DNA from: an alpha proteobacterium IMCC14465
GTDB lineage: Bacteria > Pseudomonadota > Alphaproteobacteria > RS24
Length of the DNA stretch: 64,000 bases
Assembly: GCA_000293845.2 (NCBI GenBank)
Contig: ALYF01000002.1
Location: 1-64,000 of the forward strand
Direction: 5' to 3'
Part shown: piece after piece, positions 1,740-5,286 of the stretch
Layout: each line of letters begins with the position of its first letter
Position numbering within the stretch: position 1 is the stretch's first letter
The notes under the pieces: generated by a model
Seen by the model: only the letters and a program-made list of their open reading frames with translations
The model's database searches: none
Told to the model about the DNA's origin: nothing
Position numbers and translations under genes: made by a program

Positions 1740-2521
1740 TGATTGAGTTATACACACATCCAATGTCACCTTGTGCCCAAAAAGTCCGGATTTTACTAGC
1801 TGAGAAAGGTTTGGATTGGCAAGCACACCATATTGATTTGACGCAAAAAGAGAACCTAAAACCAGAATATTTAAAACTTAATCCTCTTGGTGTCGTGCCG
1901 ACCTTGGTTGATGACGGTAAGGTGGTGATTGAATCCAGTATTATTTGCGAATATTTAGACGAGGCCTACCCGCAAAAAACCTTCCGTCCTAAAGATGCTT
2001 ACGAGGTGTCGAAAATGCGCTTCTGGATGAAGCATATTGATAATAAACTTCACCCGTCTTGTGGTGCTATTCAATGGCCCATGATAATGCGGCCCGCCAT
2101 GCTTGAGCATTCAGCTGAAGAGCGCGCCGCATTATTGGAGAAAATACCTGAAAAACCTCGTCGTGAGAGGCAAAGACGTTTGATCGAAATGGGCTTAGAT
2201 GCTCCAGATGTTACTGACGCGGTAAAAACTTATCGCAAGACAATATTGGATATGGAAAAAAACTTGGAAGGCCATGAATGGCTTCTCAGTAATGCGGTTA
2301 CACTAGCGGATATTTGCCTTATTCCGTATTTCCAAACACTTTTCCAATTCGAGTGGACAGGGATTTATGAAGATTGCCCGAATGTTCAGCGGTGGACACA
2401 AAAATGGTTTGATCGCGCATCATTTGTTGAAGCAGTGCGTCAGGATTTTTCGGCTAAAATTATGGAAGACTGTAAACGCGACGGGCGCGCCGCTTGGCCA
2501 AAAATAAACGCCTACCTCTAA
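1739..2521 (+). CDS. glutathione S-transferase family protein
   Basis: A 260-residue protein with an N-terminal thioredoxin-like GST domain (LYTHPMSPCAQKVRILLAEK at 4-23, NPLGVVPTLVDDG about 49-61, ESSIICEYLDE about 65-75) and an alpha-helical C-terminal domain containing WLLSNAVTLADICLIPY. It is longer than the usual 200-220 residues because of a charged helical insertion at roughly 115-155. The single-base overlap with the hydrolase gene makes it part of the meta-cleavage operon. GSTs are known companions of some aromatic pathways (for example BphK), where they remove halogen or reactive intermediates. The substrate here cannot be told from sequence. Confidence 0.85.
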   Translation: MIELYTHPMSPCAQKVRILLAEKGLDWQAHHIDLTQKENLKPEYLKLNPLGVVPTLVDDGKVVIESSIICEYLDEAYPQKTFRPKDAYEVSKMRFWMKHIDNKLHPSCGAIQWPMIMRPAMLEHSAEERAALLEKIPEKPRRERQRRLIEMGLDAPDVTDAVKTYRKTILDMEKNLEGHEWLLSNAVTLADICLIPYFQTLFQFEWTGIYEDCPNVQRWTQKWFDRASFVEAVRQDFSAKIMEDCKRDGRAAWPKINAYL

Positions 2522-2925
2522 TTATTTGTGAGTAGGGTCCTTTAACTTTTTAAATAACTCGTGTGTTCGAGAAGAGTTCGATGCCTATCCTAGTTCTAAA
2601 CAAATCCATGAGTTTCAATAATTTCAGTAATTAAGTGGTTTATTTGGTTGGTGTAAGTCTTTTTTATGTAATTCCTTAGTGTCTAAGGATCTATAAACCC
2701 AATAGAAACCCTTGGCATTGGCTCAAAATCAATCATTTTTATAATACTCTAAAAATTATAAATAATAAATAAAATCAATGTGTTGATTGCATAATGTAAC
2801 ATAATTAATAAAGGTTAAATGGAATAGAAGTGGAGCATTAACGACGGCTGTCGCTAGATTATAATCGGGCTCTCGCCTCACCCGCAGGGAGCTATTGTCT
2901 TGGAAGTACCTTACCGGGGGGTGCA
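2522..2925. other. intergenic region between the meta-cleavage operon and the accessory element
   Basis: There is no convincing gene in these 404 bases. Most of it is strongly AT-rich. It contains a small hairpin (CCTTAG 2674-2679 pairing with CTAAGG 2683-2688) and a GC-rich tract from about 2838 that can form several short hairpins: CGAC 2842-2845 with GTCG 2850-2853, and GCTCTC 2869-2874 with GGGAGC 2887-2892. The left boundary of the element next door should lie here, but I found no copy of the tRNA-Ser 3' end to mark it. Confidence 0.6.
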
Positions 2926-3666
2926 TCAGTATTCTCCCCATTCTTTTTCTTTTTTGGGGAAATCAATGCTTCTTATTGTTTCTTTGTCTAATCGTGGATA
3001 ATCGTTATTCCACCAATCTATAGCTTTATCAGAGTTGCTATAAATAACGTAGTCTTCCATGTACTCATTTGAATTAAACGACAAGTTTATAAGTTCATAA
3101 ACACAATCTATAGTTTTGATAATTTGATTAAACGAGGGCGCTGAGTTGTTCTCAGTAAGATAATGTTTTAGTGCGCATCTGATGACAGATGGTGAGCAAT
3201 CAGTTTTAAATCGAGTCACGCCAAATTTATTGTTTGTCCAAGTGTCATAAAGTGTCCATTGGTTTTTTTTAAAATCCAAATGATGCTTTTCCTCGGGACA
3301 TACATTTTTCACAACTGCATCAATTATAATATGAACGTTTTTGGGTTTAGTTGAGAAGTGGTCATAAAACTCATTTAATGCATGAGCCATATATTCTTTT
3401 GACGTAAAAATATCGCATACGTAATAAAAATTAGTTTTGTTACTGACCTCTAAAACTTTTTTATTAACTCTTAAATGATAGTAAATTTCCCTAAATGTTT
3501 CATACGGCAGCATTTTAGATAGCTCTGCCTGACTATCTAAGTCTGAGATACTTTTTACCCATTCTAGGTAAGTGTTTTTCCTTTCATTTTTCTCTCTTAC
3601 CTTTTCTTCATGGTCAGAGTCATAAATATAAAAATCATCTTCACATGGTTTATCAAATTTAGTCAT
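2926..3666 (-). CDS. hypothetical protein, last gene of the tRNA-Ser-linked element
   Basis: A 246-residue soluble protein I do not recognise. It is rich in Lys, Asp, Glu, Asn and aromatic residues and has no signal peptide, membrane segment or familiar nucleotide-binding motif. The start is well supported: AGGAGG sits 8 bases before ATG 3666. The gene overlaps the end of the winged-helix initiator-like gene by 8 bases, so the two are translationally coupled. By position it could supply a partner function to that protein, such as helicase loading, but this is guesswork from gene order and no motif supports it. Its codon use is much more AT-rich than that of the flanking chromosomal genes. Confidence 0.7.
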   Translation of the reverse strand: MTKFDKPCEDDFYIYDSDHEEKVREKNERKNTYLEWVKSISDLDSQAELSKMLPYETFREIYYHLRVNKKVLEVSNKTNFYYVCDIFTSKEYMAHALNEFYDHFSTKPKNVHIIIDAVVKNVCPEEKHHLDFKKNQWTLYDTWTNNKFGVTRFKTDCSPSVIRCALKHYLTENNSAPSFNQIIKTIDCVYELINLSFNSNEYMEDYVIYSNSDKAIDWWNNDYPRLDKETIRSIDFPKKEKEWGEY

Positions 3667-4102
3667 CTAATAGCCTCCTAGTGGGCTGAGGTCGCGAAGC
3701 CACTGGCGAAGCGGCCTCTTGCCCACGGTAAGAGGTATTATTCGACTGAATATAACTCTCTCCTTTAGGAGAGTTATATTCAGTCTTATGTGTCCCAACG
3801 GTTTGGGACGTGGTACTTGTCATTTTGGGACGCGATGACTTTGAATTTGGGACGCGGTGATTGCAAATTTGGTACACGTTAGCCTTGCCTAAACTTCCAC
3901 TTTTTCTCTCTAGCCACTTTGCTTTCACAAGGGCATTAATTGAGGTTTGGATAGTGTTTTTGGATTTGTTTAGATAATTGGCTAAGTAACGAATACCGCA
4001 CCAAGCATATCCTTTTTGATTATTGATATGATTTAGCACGGCGATGAATACCCTTACGTCTCTGTCTGATACTTTATCATCTGAAACGATTGTATTAATC
4101 AT
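3659..4102 (-). CDS. winged-helix replication-initiator-like protein with embedded iterons
   Basis: About 147 residues from the ATG at 4102, chosen because AGAGGA lies just upstream; an upstream in-frame ATG at 4132 has no ribosome site. Residues about 10-80 read as a winged helix-turn-helix, with IRYLANYLNKSKNTIQTSIN as the recognition region followed by ALVKAKWLERKSG. This resembles the DNA-binding half of phage and plasmid initiators. The C-terminal half is polar and low in complexity. The DNA encoding that half carries four 22-bp repeats and a perfect 17-bp inverted repeat. This matches the layout of lambda O, where the origin iterons lie inside the initiator gene. A simple transcriptional regulator is the main alternative. 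Confidence 0.6.
   Translation of the reverse strand: MINTIVSDDKVSDRDVRVFIAVLNHINNQKGYAWCGIRYLANYLNKSKNTIQTSINALVKAKWLERKSGSLGKANVYQICNHRVPNSKSSRPKMTSTTSQTVGTHKTEYNSPKGESYIQSNNTSYRGQEAASPVASRPQPTRRLLDD
3744..3785. repeat. perfect 17-bp inverted repeat (hairpin) inside the initiator-like gene
   Basis: The left arm GACTGAATATAACTCTC (3744-3760) is perfectly complementary to the right arm at 3769-3785, with an 8-base loop. It lies inside coding DNA, immediately beside the iteron array. A second, smaller palindrome (GTCCCAA 3792-3798 and TTGGGAC 3803-3809) bridges to the first iteron. Such arms in coding sequence are unusual and suggest a DNA- or RNA-level role, for example as part of a replication origin or a transcription attenuator. 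Confidence 0.85.
3802..3889. repeat. four tandem 22-bp iteron-like repeats
   Basis: Four copies of a TTTGGGACGCGGT-like core begin at 3802, 3824, 3846 and 3868, exactly 22 bp apart. The first three share TTTGGGACG; the fourth is diverged (TTTGGTACACGTT). Because 22 is not a multiple of three, the repeats fall in different codon phases and do not give a repeated peptide, so the conservation is at DNA level. A 22-bp pitch (about two helical turns) is typical of iterons bound by replication initiators. Confidence 0.8.
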
Positions 4103-4322
4103 TTTTATCCTCTGAACTAAATCCAGTTTCATTTGGTACTCTCAGTTCTAGACTTCTAAACTCAGCCACATGTTCAAATTGAACGTAATAGTCACCATCA
4201 ATGTCAGCGATGGGAGGAAAGTCTTTATGGTTAACCATCCACTCAAATTCATTCTCATTCTCTTCGAGAAGTGCTTGAGCTTCTCTTAGTTTTATCCAGC
4301 GCACACCAATGTCATGATGCAT
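4095..4322 (-). CDS. small hypothetical protein of the element
   Basis: About 75 residues from the ATG at 4322, which follows GGGGGA; the frame is open further to an ATG at 4334. It is acidic and contains MVNHKDFPPIADIDGDYYV, reminiscent of small excisionase or AlpA-type DNA-binding proteins, in which a Pro-Pro turn is followed by an acidic strand. The match is too weak to assign a function. It overlaps the AlpA-like gene upstream by 11 bases and the initiator-like gene downstream by 8 bases, so it sits in the middle of a tightly packed minus-strand operon. Confidence 0.55.
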   Translation of the reverse strand: MHHDIGVRWIKLREAQALLEENENEFEWMVNHKDFPPIADIDGDYYVQFEHVAEFRSLELRVPNETGFSSEDKND

Positions 4323-4533
4323 GGCTTCCCCCATAAGGACGTTCTGCTTCCGCAGTCTTAGCGGCGATGTCAGCCATAATTTCTGACCTTAGCCATCTAA
4401 ATTTCATGTTTGGGATGCTGACCGGGGGAGGGATTAACCCTTCTTTAGCCTTAGCGTAAACGGTGCTACGAGCGATGCCGTAGATACGCATGATATCTTG
4501 CACGCGTAGTAATTCATCTGTCTGGATACTCAT
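4312..4533 (-). CDS. AlpA-family / excisionase-like HTH regulator
   Basis: A 73-residue protein with the AlpA/MerR-like helix-turn-helix layout: LLRVQDIMRIYGIARSTVYAKAKEGLIPPPVSI at residues 8-40, then FRWLRSEIMADIAAK. In phages and satellites such as P4, AlpA-family proteins control excision or early transcription. AAGGA precedes the ATG by about 9 bases. The gene is the second in a minus-strand cluster running away from tRNA-Ser, and it is the clearest sign that the cluster is a mobile element. Confidence 0.85.
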   Translation of the reverse strand: MSIQTDELLRVQDIMRIYGIARSTVYAKAKEGLIPPPVSIPNMKFRWLRSEIMADIAAKTAEAERPYGGSHAS

Positions 4534-4609
4534 ATGTCCAATTCCTTTCTGCCGTATGTGGCAGAATGAAAGTGAACGTATTCATAAATGATTTACATGG
4601 TCTGAATTT

Positions 4610-5077
4610 TTATTGTTTAGACCATTTTTTTCTTTTCTTAATTACTTCCTCGATTGCAATCTCGGTTCGACCTGTCAGTTCTGCTAATTTTTTTATTAAG
4701 TCTTCTTTTTTGTATTCCGGTTTAAGATCATCATAAACATCTATAATATGCCTCGACTCCACCATGTTTTGATAAGGAGACATCCCTTTGTAGTTAATTT
4801 TATCTTCTATAAGTTGATAAAGTCGCTCTGTAATTTGAGGGGCGTGCTGACCCATATTTGATGCTCTAATTGCATACAACATTAGGTTTAGGTCTTGTGT
4901 TTTTTTTGTTTTTTTATCTGACTTATTTTTTAATTCAACCCAAAGACGCTCTAGGTGAATTAAATAATTAATACTTATATTTGGATTTTTCTTAAAAAAA
5001 TAATCCCACCCATACTTTCTCTGTGTCTGATACTCGACATCTGAAAGTTCTTCTGGAGGTATTTCGTCCTTATCCAT
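4610..5077 (-). CDS. hypothetical protein, first gene of the element
   Basis: A 155-residue, highly charged and probably all-helical protein without signal peptide or membrane segment. I do not recognise the family. The C-terminal third (LIKKLAELTGRTEIAIEEVIKK, split here for length) could form a small helix-turn-helix, which would fit an element regulator, but this is tentative. No clear ribosome-binding site precedes the ATG at 5077. It is the gene nearest to tRNA-Ser, where an integrase would normally be expected, and it shows no recombinase motif. Confidence 0.6.
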   Translation of the reverse strand: MDKDEIPPEELSDVEYQTQRKYGWDYFFKKNPNISINYLIHLERLWVELKNKSDKKTKKTQDLNLMLYAIRASNMGQHAPQITERLYQLIEDKINYKGMSPYQNMVESRHIIDVYDDLKPEYKKEDLIKKLAELTGRTEIAIEEVIKKRKKWSKQ

Positions 5078-5125
5078 GAGAACAATATTAGACGTACAGG
5101 GACATAAGGTAAATATTATTTTAAT

Positions 5126-5148
5126 AGTGGCAATTTGAGTGGCAATTT
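5126..5148. repeat. direct repeat AGTGGCAATTT x2 beside tRNA-Ser
   Basis: AGTGGCAATTT occurs at 5126-5136 and again at 5138-5148, 12 bp apart, in the AT-rich gap between the element's first gene and the 3' end of tRNA-Ser. Paired short repeats close to a tRNA attachment site resemble recombinase arm-binding sites, but this pair could be a simple local duplication. Confidence 0.5.
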
Positions 5149-5196
5149 ATTTAATTATTTTTAAATTATTGTTTTTATTATATATTTTTATAAGTC

Positions 5197-5286
5197 TGGC
5201 GGAGAGGGAGGGATTCGAACCCCCGGAACGCGCAAACGCTCAACGGTTTTCAAGACCGCCGCTTTCAACCACTCAGCCACCTCTCC
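5197..5286 (-). tRNA. tRNA-Ser (anticodon TGA)
   Basis: Read on the minus strand, a 90-base class II tRNA starts GGAGAGG at 5286 and ends with CTCTCC, G and an encoded CCA at 5197. The anticodon loop reads CTTGAAA (anticodon TGA), and the long variable arm is typical of tRNA-Ser. The T-loop GGTTCGAATCCC is intact. Its 3' end faces the accessory element at 2.6-5.1 kb, the usual geometry for integration into a tRNA gene. Confidence 0.97.

Follow-up and report, generated by a model that had tools for sequence, protein, structure and literature searches.

An in-gene array of 22-bp half-site repeats as a probable replication origin of a small AlpA-type element at tRNA-Ser

A short, strictly spaced DNA repeat lies inside the gene for a winged-helix protein in the alphaproteobacterium IMCC14465, which raises the question of what such a repeat is doing within coding sequence. 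The window analysed here is the 64-kb start of contig C2 of this 1.92-Mb genome. The initial annotation had placed four repeats at 3802, 3824, 3846 and 3868, and this holds: the 9-mer TTTGGGACG is present at the first three positions with a pitch of exactly 22 bp, while the fourth is a degenerate copy, TTTGGTACA, that still keeps the pitch (degenerate unit, TTTGGTACACGTT). On the gene strand, the four units read GGCAAGGCTAACGTGTACCAAA, TTTGCAATCACCGCGTCCCAAA, TTCAAAGTCATCGCGTCCCAAA, and ATGACAAGTACCACGTCCCAAA. Their starts occupy codon phases 0, 1, 2, and 0; all three frames are thus used, even though the first unit agrees in phase with the last, and the encoded peptides (NVYQ, HRVPN, SRPK, and TTSQ) are unrelated, as had been claimed. 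The best 4-copy, 12-column array scores 43/48; the 200 synonymous recodings and the 200 codon-order shuffles both peaked at 37, and the 40 first-order Markov 64-kb sequences at 38. The mixed phases and the synonymous null together bear out the proposal that the pattern exists at the DNA level. Scanning the window for pitches of 14–31 not divisible by 3, at a threshold of 40, returned the array at 3802–3889 as the sole one of its kind. The 9-mer TTTGGGACG itself is not enriched in the window with one mismatch allowed, so the signal is the array and not the word. Additionally, a fifth, inverted half-site and two large inverted repeats, all overlooked in the initial annotation, lie close by (Table 1). 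Only one array unit has a second half-site; three of the four are half-sites without a dyad partner.

Table 1 Features of the locus (positions in the window, except for the last line)
Feature	Position	Strand	Remarks
P2, 246 aa	2926–3666	-	Start overlaps P1 stop by 8 nt; helicase-loader position of O-type loci
P1, putative replication initiator, 157 aa	3659–4132	-	Winged helix at aa 23–74, then iteron-containing linker
Hairpin B	3668–3740		Long imperfect stem; pairs with P2 Shine-Dalgarno AGGAGG (3674–3679)
Hairpin A	3744–3785		Perfect 17-bp inverted repeat with 8-nt loop, within P1, just past the array
Fifth half-site, inverted	3792–3798		Forms dyad GTCCCAA-N4-TTGGGAC with 3803–3809; from sequence
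Iteron units, n = 4	3802–3889 (3802–3823, 3824–3845, 3846–3867, degenerate 3868–3889)	-	Gene-strand half-site CGTCCCAAA
Small ORF, 79 aa	4095–4334	-	Between alpA and P1, overlaps both; no family match
AlpA-type regulator/excisionase, 73 aa	4312–4533	-	Phage_AlpA 9.8e-8; phrog_66 1.6e-8
ORF, 155 aa	4610–5077	-	Between tRNA-Ser and alpA; no family
tRNA-Ser(TGA)	5197–5286	-	3' end is the right border of the element
L112 (sister-genus locus G017:C36:1-5317)	16–2319 and about 2509–2673	-	AlpA and DUF3987/RepB-primase, PICMI-like pair

The gene that holds the array, P1, is best described as a putative initiator. The HTH_36 profile matches residues 23–74 at 6.6e-9, and the top PHROG matches are replication initiation or O-like initiator families (8.6e-10 to 5e-8); MarR_2-like and other HTH matches were also found, while Phage_rep_O (PF04492) gave no match in the profile search. 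The array follows closely on the winged helix, from about codon 82, and the tail that carries it is predicted, at low confidence, to be unstructured. As judged from its sequence, P1 consists of a DNA-binding domain and a linker only; a C-terminal domain was not detected. No close relative of P1 was found in viral contigs, species genomes, phages, or plasmids, and comparison with 144 relatives gave one weak match and nothing else. A sequence search found no solved structure, and AlphaFold models made with no alignment reached pLDDT values of 36 and 45, which are too poor, and were not used.

To what extent does this arrangement resemble known initiator genes? In the lambda record, four iterons are annotated within O, in mixed phases and with spacings of 20, 24, and 23 bp. 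Eight other annotated O genes, picked from BLAST hits, contain 3–5 copies at aa 97–143, also in mixed phases and with spacings mostly of 19–26 bp; exact 22-bp spacing runs in two of them, with three successive 22-bp spacings in Pseudoalteromonas phage Y3. In all these genes the iterons follow the winged helix, as the array does in P1. The lambda-type initiator layout proposed earlier is supported in position and pitch, although the 9-mer, one-mismatch statistic is weak for three-copy cases such as lambda and the window, and here shows position, not significance. The sequence after the last iteron, GGGACACAAAAGAC in lambda versus GGGACACATAAGAC in the window, is suggestive.

We also scanned 2.9 million viral contigs with a DNA-only pattern, namely two CGTCCCAAA 22 bp apart, and obtained seven loci. 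Three of them (L119, L120, and L121) are arrays within winged-helix initiator genes. In two of the three, L120 and L121, the arrays are built on CGTCCCAAAACGGGACG and lie in Phage_rep_O genes (7.4e-25 and 6.9e-19), and the products of both genes match O proteins annotated in phages; by inspection, a DnaB-like helicase gene comes after the L120 initiator gene, and the L119 array lies in another winged-helix gene. A dyad-pattern scan added L128, with an array in an O-like gene followed by a DnaB-like gene; its remaining loci are mostly single sites and look like chance. This landing of a DNA-only scan on winged-helix initiator genes, together with the layout match, supports an embedded origin to which P1 is predicted to bind.

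The other loci of the half-site scan are of different kinds. L118 has 22-bp-pitch dyads, CGTCCCAAAATCGGGACG, at 1700–1830 of a viral contig, close to a winged-helix gene and outside it. L122 (7571–7601) and L124 (155–185), which are nearly identical sequences from related viral contigs, carry two CGTCCCAAAACT 22 bp apart directly by a tRNA-like sequence, and L123 looks like a chance match.

Downstream of P1, the junction with P2 resembles O-P gene junctions in its start/stop overlap, and a good ribosome-binding site precedes the P2 start. The PHROG initiator profile phrog_26369 matches the C-terminal part of P2 at 1.4e-4, and the C-terminal part of this profile also matches DnaA N-termini. The idea that P2 belongs to the DnaA domain I proteins was rejected, as hhalign and direct HMM comparison scored no better than shuffled sequence. 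Pfam, NCBIfam, and PADLOC gave no match for P2, no loader domain is recognisable in it, and homologues were found neither in viral contigs and phages nor in the 144 relatives, 385 class genomes, and species genomes. Since no loader domain was recognised and the DnaA domain I test failed, a helicase-loader role for P2 is proposed from gene order.

The stretch with the two hairpins folds far better than its shuffles, with -62.3 kcal/mol and a z of -7.3 as RNA and a z of -6.9 as single-stranded DNA. The pairing of hairpin B with the P2 Shine-Dalgarno motif makes it likely that translation of P2 is coupled to that of P1, while hairpin A may be a component of the origin. Hairpin B has no second copy in the window or the fetched loci that would mark it as a dispersed palindromic repeat. 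The GC content over the palindrome is 38–40%, not under the usual level of the element, and no marked AT-rich tract adjoins the array.

The initial annotation had left the element family unrecognised; the element contains AlpA, sits at tRNA-Ser, and is satellite-like. It spans ~2.6 kb and contains, from tRNA-Ser leftwards, the 155-aa ORF, AlpA, the 79-aa ORF, P1, and P2; these five ORFs lie close together and are all intact, and they and the tRNA are on the minus strand. The 155-aa ORF has no homologue in viral contigs or relatives, and in the RNA family search the tRNA alone reached the cut-off. The border lies exactly at the tRNA 3' end, a putative attachment site that is variable in congeners: in G001, G003, G005, and G008, four genomes from the genus or the family, similarity to the window ends at this point and the sequence beyond varies. 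The left end adjoins a catabolic operon (105–2521) whose genes are also found in congeners, in a different context. By eye, these genes were named fumarylacetoacetate-hydrolase-like, alpha/beta hydrolase, and GST-like; the G002 and G005 assemblies break within the GST gene, and a different gene follows there.

No integrase ORF or recognisable remnant was found in 2522–5196, and searches near 2522–2925 and 5078–5196 revealed neither an integrase remnant nor a second attachment repeat. Given the AlpA gene content without an integrase or second repeat, we describe the element as satellite-like and outside the PICMI definition. Integrases exist elsewhere in the host genome. Some 215 kb into this contig (G000:C2:215272-216473) there is an adjacent pair of phage-integrase genes, one on each strand, as a possible source of integrase in trans. 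In another genus of the same family (G017), AlpA and a 767-aa DUF3987/RepB-primase come after this tRNA-Ser(TGA), with no integrase between tRNA and AlpA (L112). This suggests that satellite-like elements use this tRNA-Ser site with different replication modules.

How does the locus compare with known replication systems? In iteron plasmids, direct, non-palindromic repeats of ~22 bp are bound by a winged-helix initiator; the P1 array resembles these in its repeats and differs in that the plasmid iterons usually lie outside the gene. O-type embedded origins are already known from lambda and Stx phages (PMC7466680). Lambda-type modules (PMC7466680) share with this locus an N-terminal winged helix, mixed-phase iterons of 20–24 bp pitch right after it within the gene, and an overlapping next gene. 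P1 differs from lambda O in its length of 157 aa, in having neither a detected C-terminal domain nor a Phage_rep_O match, and in an array mostly of half-sites, whereas lambda iterons are dyads; moreover, the loader is unrecognisable, no clear AT-rich tract is apparent, and the locus is not in a phage. The layout would work like a lambda-type origin; P1 matches O-like PHROG families, not Phage_rep_O. The repABC plasmids of alphaproteobacteria also keep their origin in the initiator gene, with oriV inside repC (PMC3155836); however, P1 has no RepC match, and repC of p42d is without iterons (PMC3155836), unlike P1. PICMI, which are small, are defined by AlpA, DUF3987/RepB-primase, and integrase (PMC10803314). 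The element shares with PICMI, PICI, and P4-like satellites a gene order in which AlpA precedes a small gene and then the replication gene, but has no integrase and no DUF3987 or P4-type primase. In PICI, the rep gene has the origin on its 3' side (PMC6092414), whereas the O-like initiator of this element has the array embedded within it.

Taken together, the array is probably (at roughly three in four) the iteron part of an origin that lies within an initiator gene, carried by a small AlpA-type integrated element. The embedded origin suggested by the initial annotation is thereby supported by the DNA-level repeats, the O-like profiles, the lambda-like position and pitch, and the half-site scan that landed on O-like genes. 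We propose that the winged helix of P1 would bind the direct-repeat CGTCCCAAA half-sites; as these are two helical turns apart, P1 molecules would be loaded on one face of the DNA. The resulting complex would strain the neighbouring DNA that holds the 17-bp palindrome and could favour its melting. The host replicative helicase would be loaded next, probably via P2, in the manner of P/DnaC-like loaders in lambda-type modules, and the element might in this way continue to replicate. P2 would probably be translated only once ribosomes complete P1, with hairpin B covering its ribosome-binding site. The locus departs from the known plan in its short initiator, its use of half-sites as iterons, its unfamiliar partner gene, the hairpin at the ribosome-binding site, and a new context, the AlpA/tRNA-Ser setting without an integrase. 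More speculatively, and doubtful at present, a satellite lineage of alphaproteobacteria may have swapped the AlpA-linked primase for a split lambda-type module, with a minimal O-like P1 whose linker DNA is the origin, a separate, unrelated loader P2 whose translation the origin-region hairpin holds back, and movement of the element by an integrase acting in trans.

The alternative that survives best concerns the present and not the past of the array, and is compatible with the embedded origin as its former function: the element may have decayed, leaving a fossil origin without present function. The missing integrase in 2522–5196, the failure to find a second attachment repeat, a P1 shorter than most O proteins, and singleton status would fit such decay, which we consider possible rather than probable, as the five ORFs remain intact and tightly packed and three half-sites are perfect at exact pitch. 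It is unlikely that the array is instead an operator, or a handcuffing or copy-control site, with P1 as a winged-helix repressor of the P1-P2 operon. The MarR_2-like and other HTH matches and the lack of a distinct AT-rich melting tract by the array are consistent with such a role; however, the repeats lie ~250 bp into the gene, away from the promoter, the best profiles of P1 are replication initiators, and the half-site relatives are O proteins. Another DNA function for the repeats and the hairpins, such as packaging, partition, or single-strand priming on behalf of a helper phage, we regard as quite improbable: two exceptionally strong inverted repeats do stand beside the array (DNA fold z of -6.9), but no helper phage is known, and the in-gene position right after the winged helix is that of an O-type origin. 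Chance repeats or a peptide repeat, which have only the low copy number in their favour, can practically be dismissed, as the array beats all nulls used and the reading phases differ.

An embedded origin here would extend the lambda O plan to a minimal initiator of 157 aa with no recognisable phage genome around it, in a satellite-like element at the very tRNA that carries a primase-based AlpA element in the sister genus. If active, the locus would be a very small example of one DNA stretch serving as both initiator gene and origin. A plain DNA pattern such as 22-bp half-sites in mixed codon phases can also flag origins where the proteins have no relatives. Within the same class, a prophage locus (G040; L075, 1785–3148) shares this arrangement, with 22/23-bp GTACCCCACGAG-like repeats in an HTH_36 gene, the end of which is overlapped by an IstB/DnaC-like ATPase gene. 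Applied to the remaining HTH_36 ORFs of the class, the same statistic found no embedded array in most of them, as expected since many are plain regulators. In a 4.2-Mb alphaproteobacterium, a 116-aa HTH_36/O-like gene has three 23-bp repeats (L076, 6032–6098) immediately on its 3' side.
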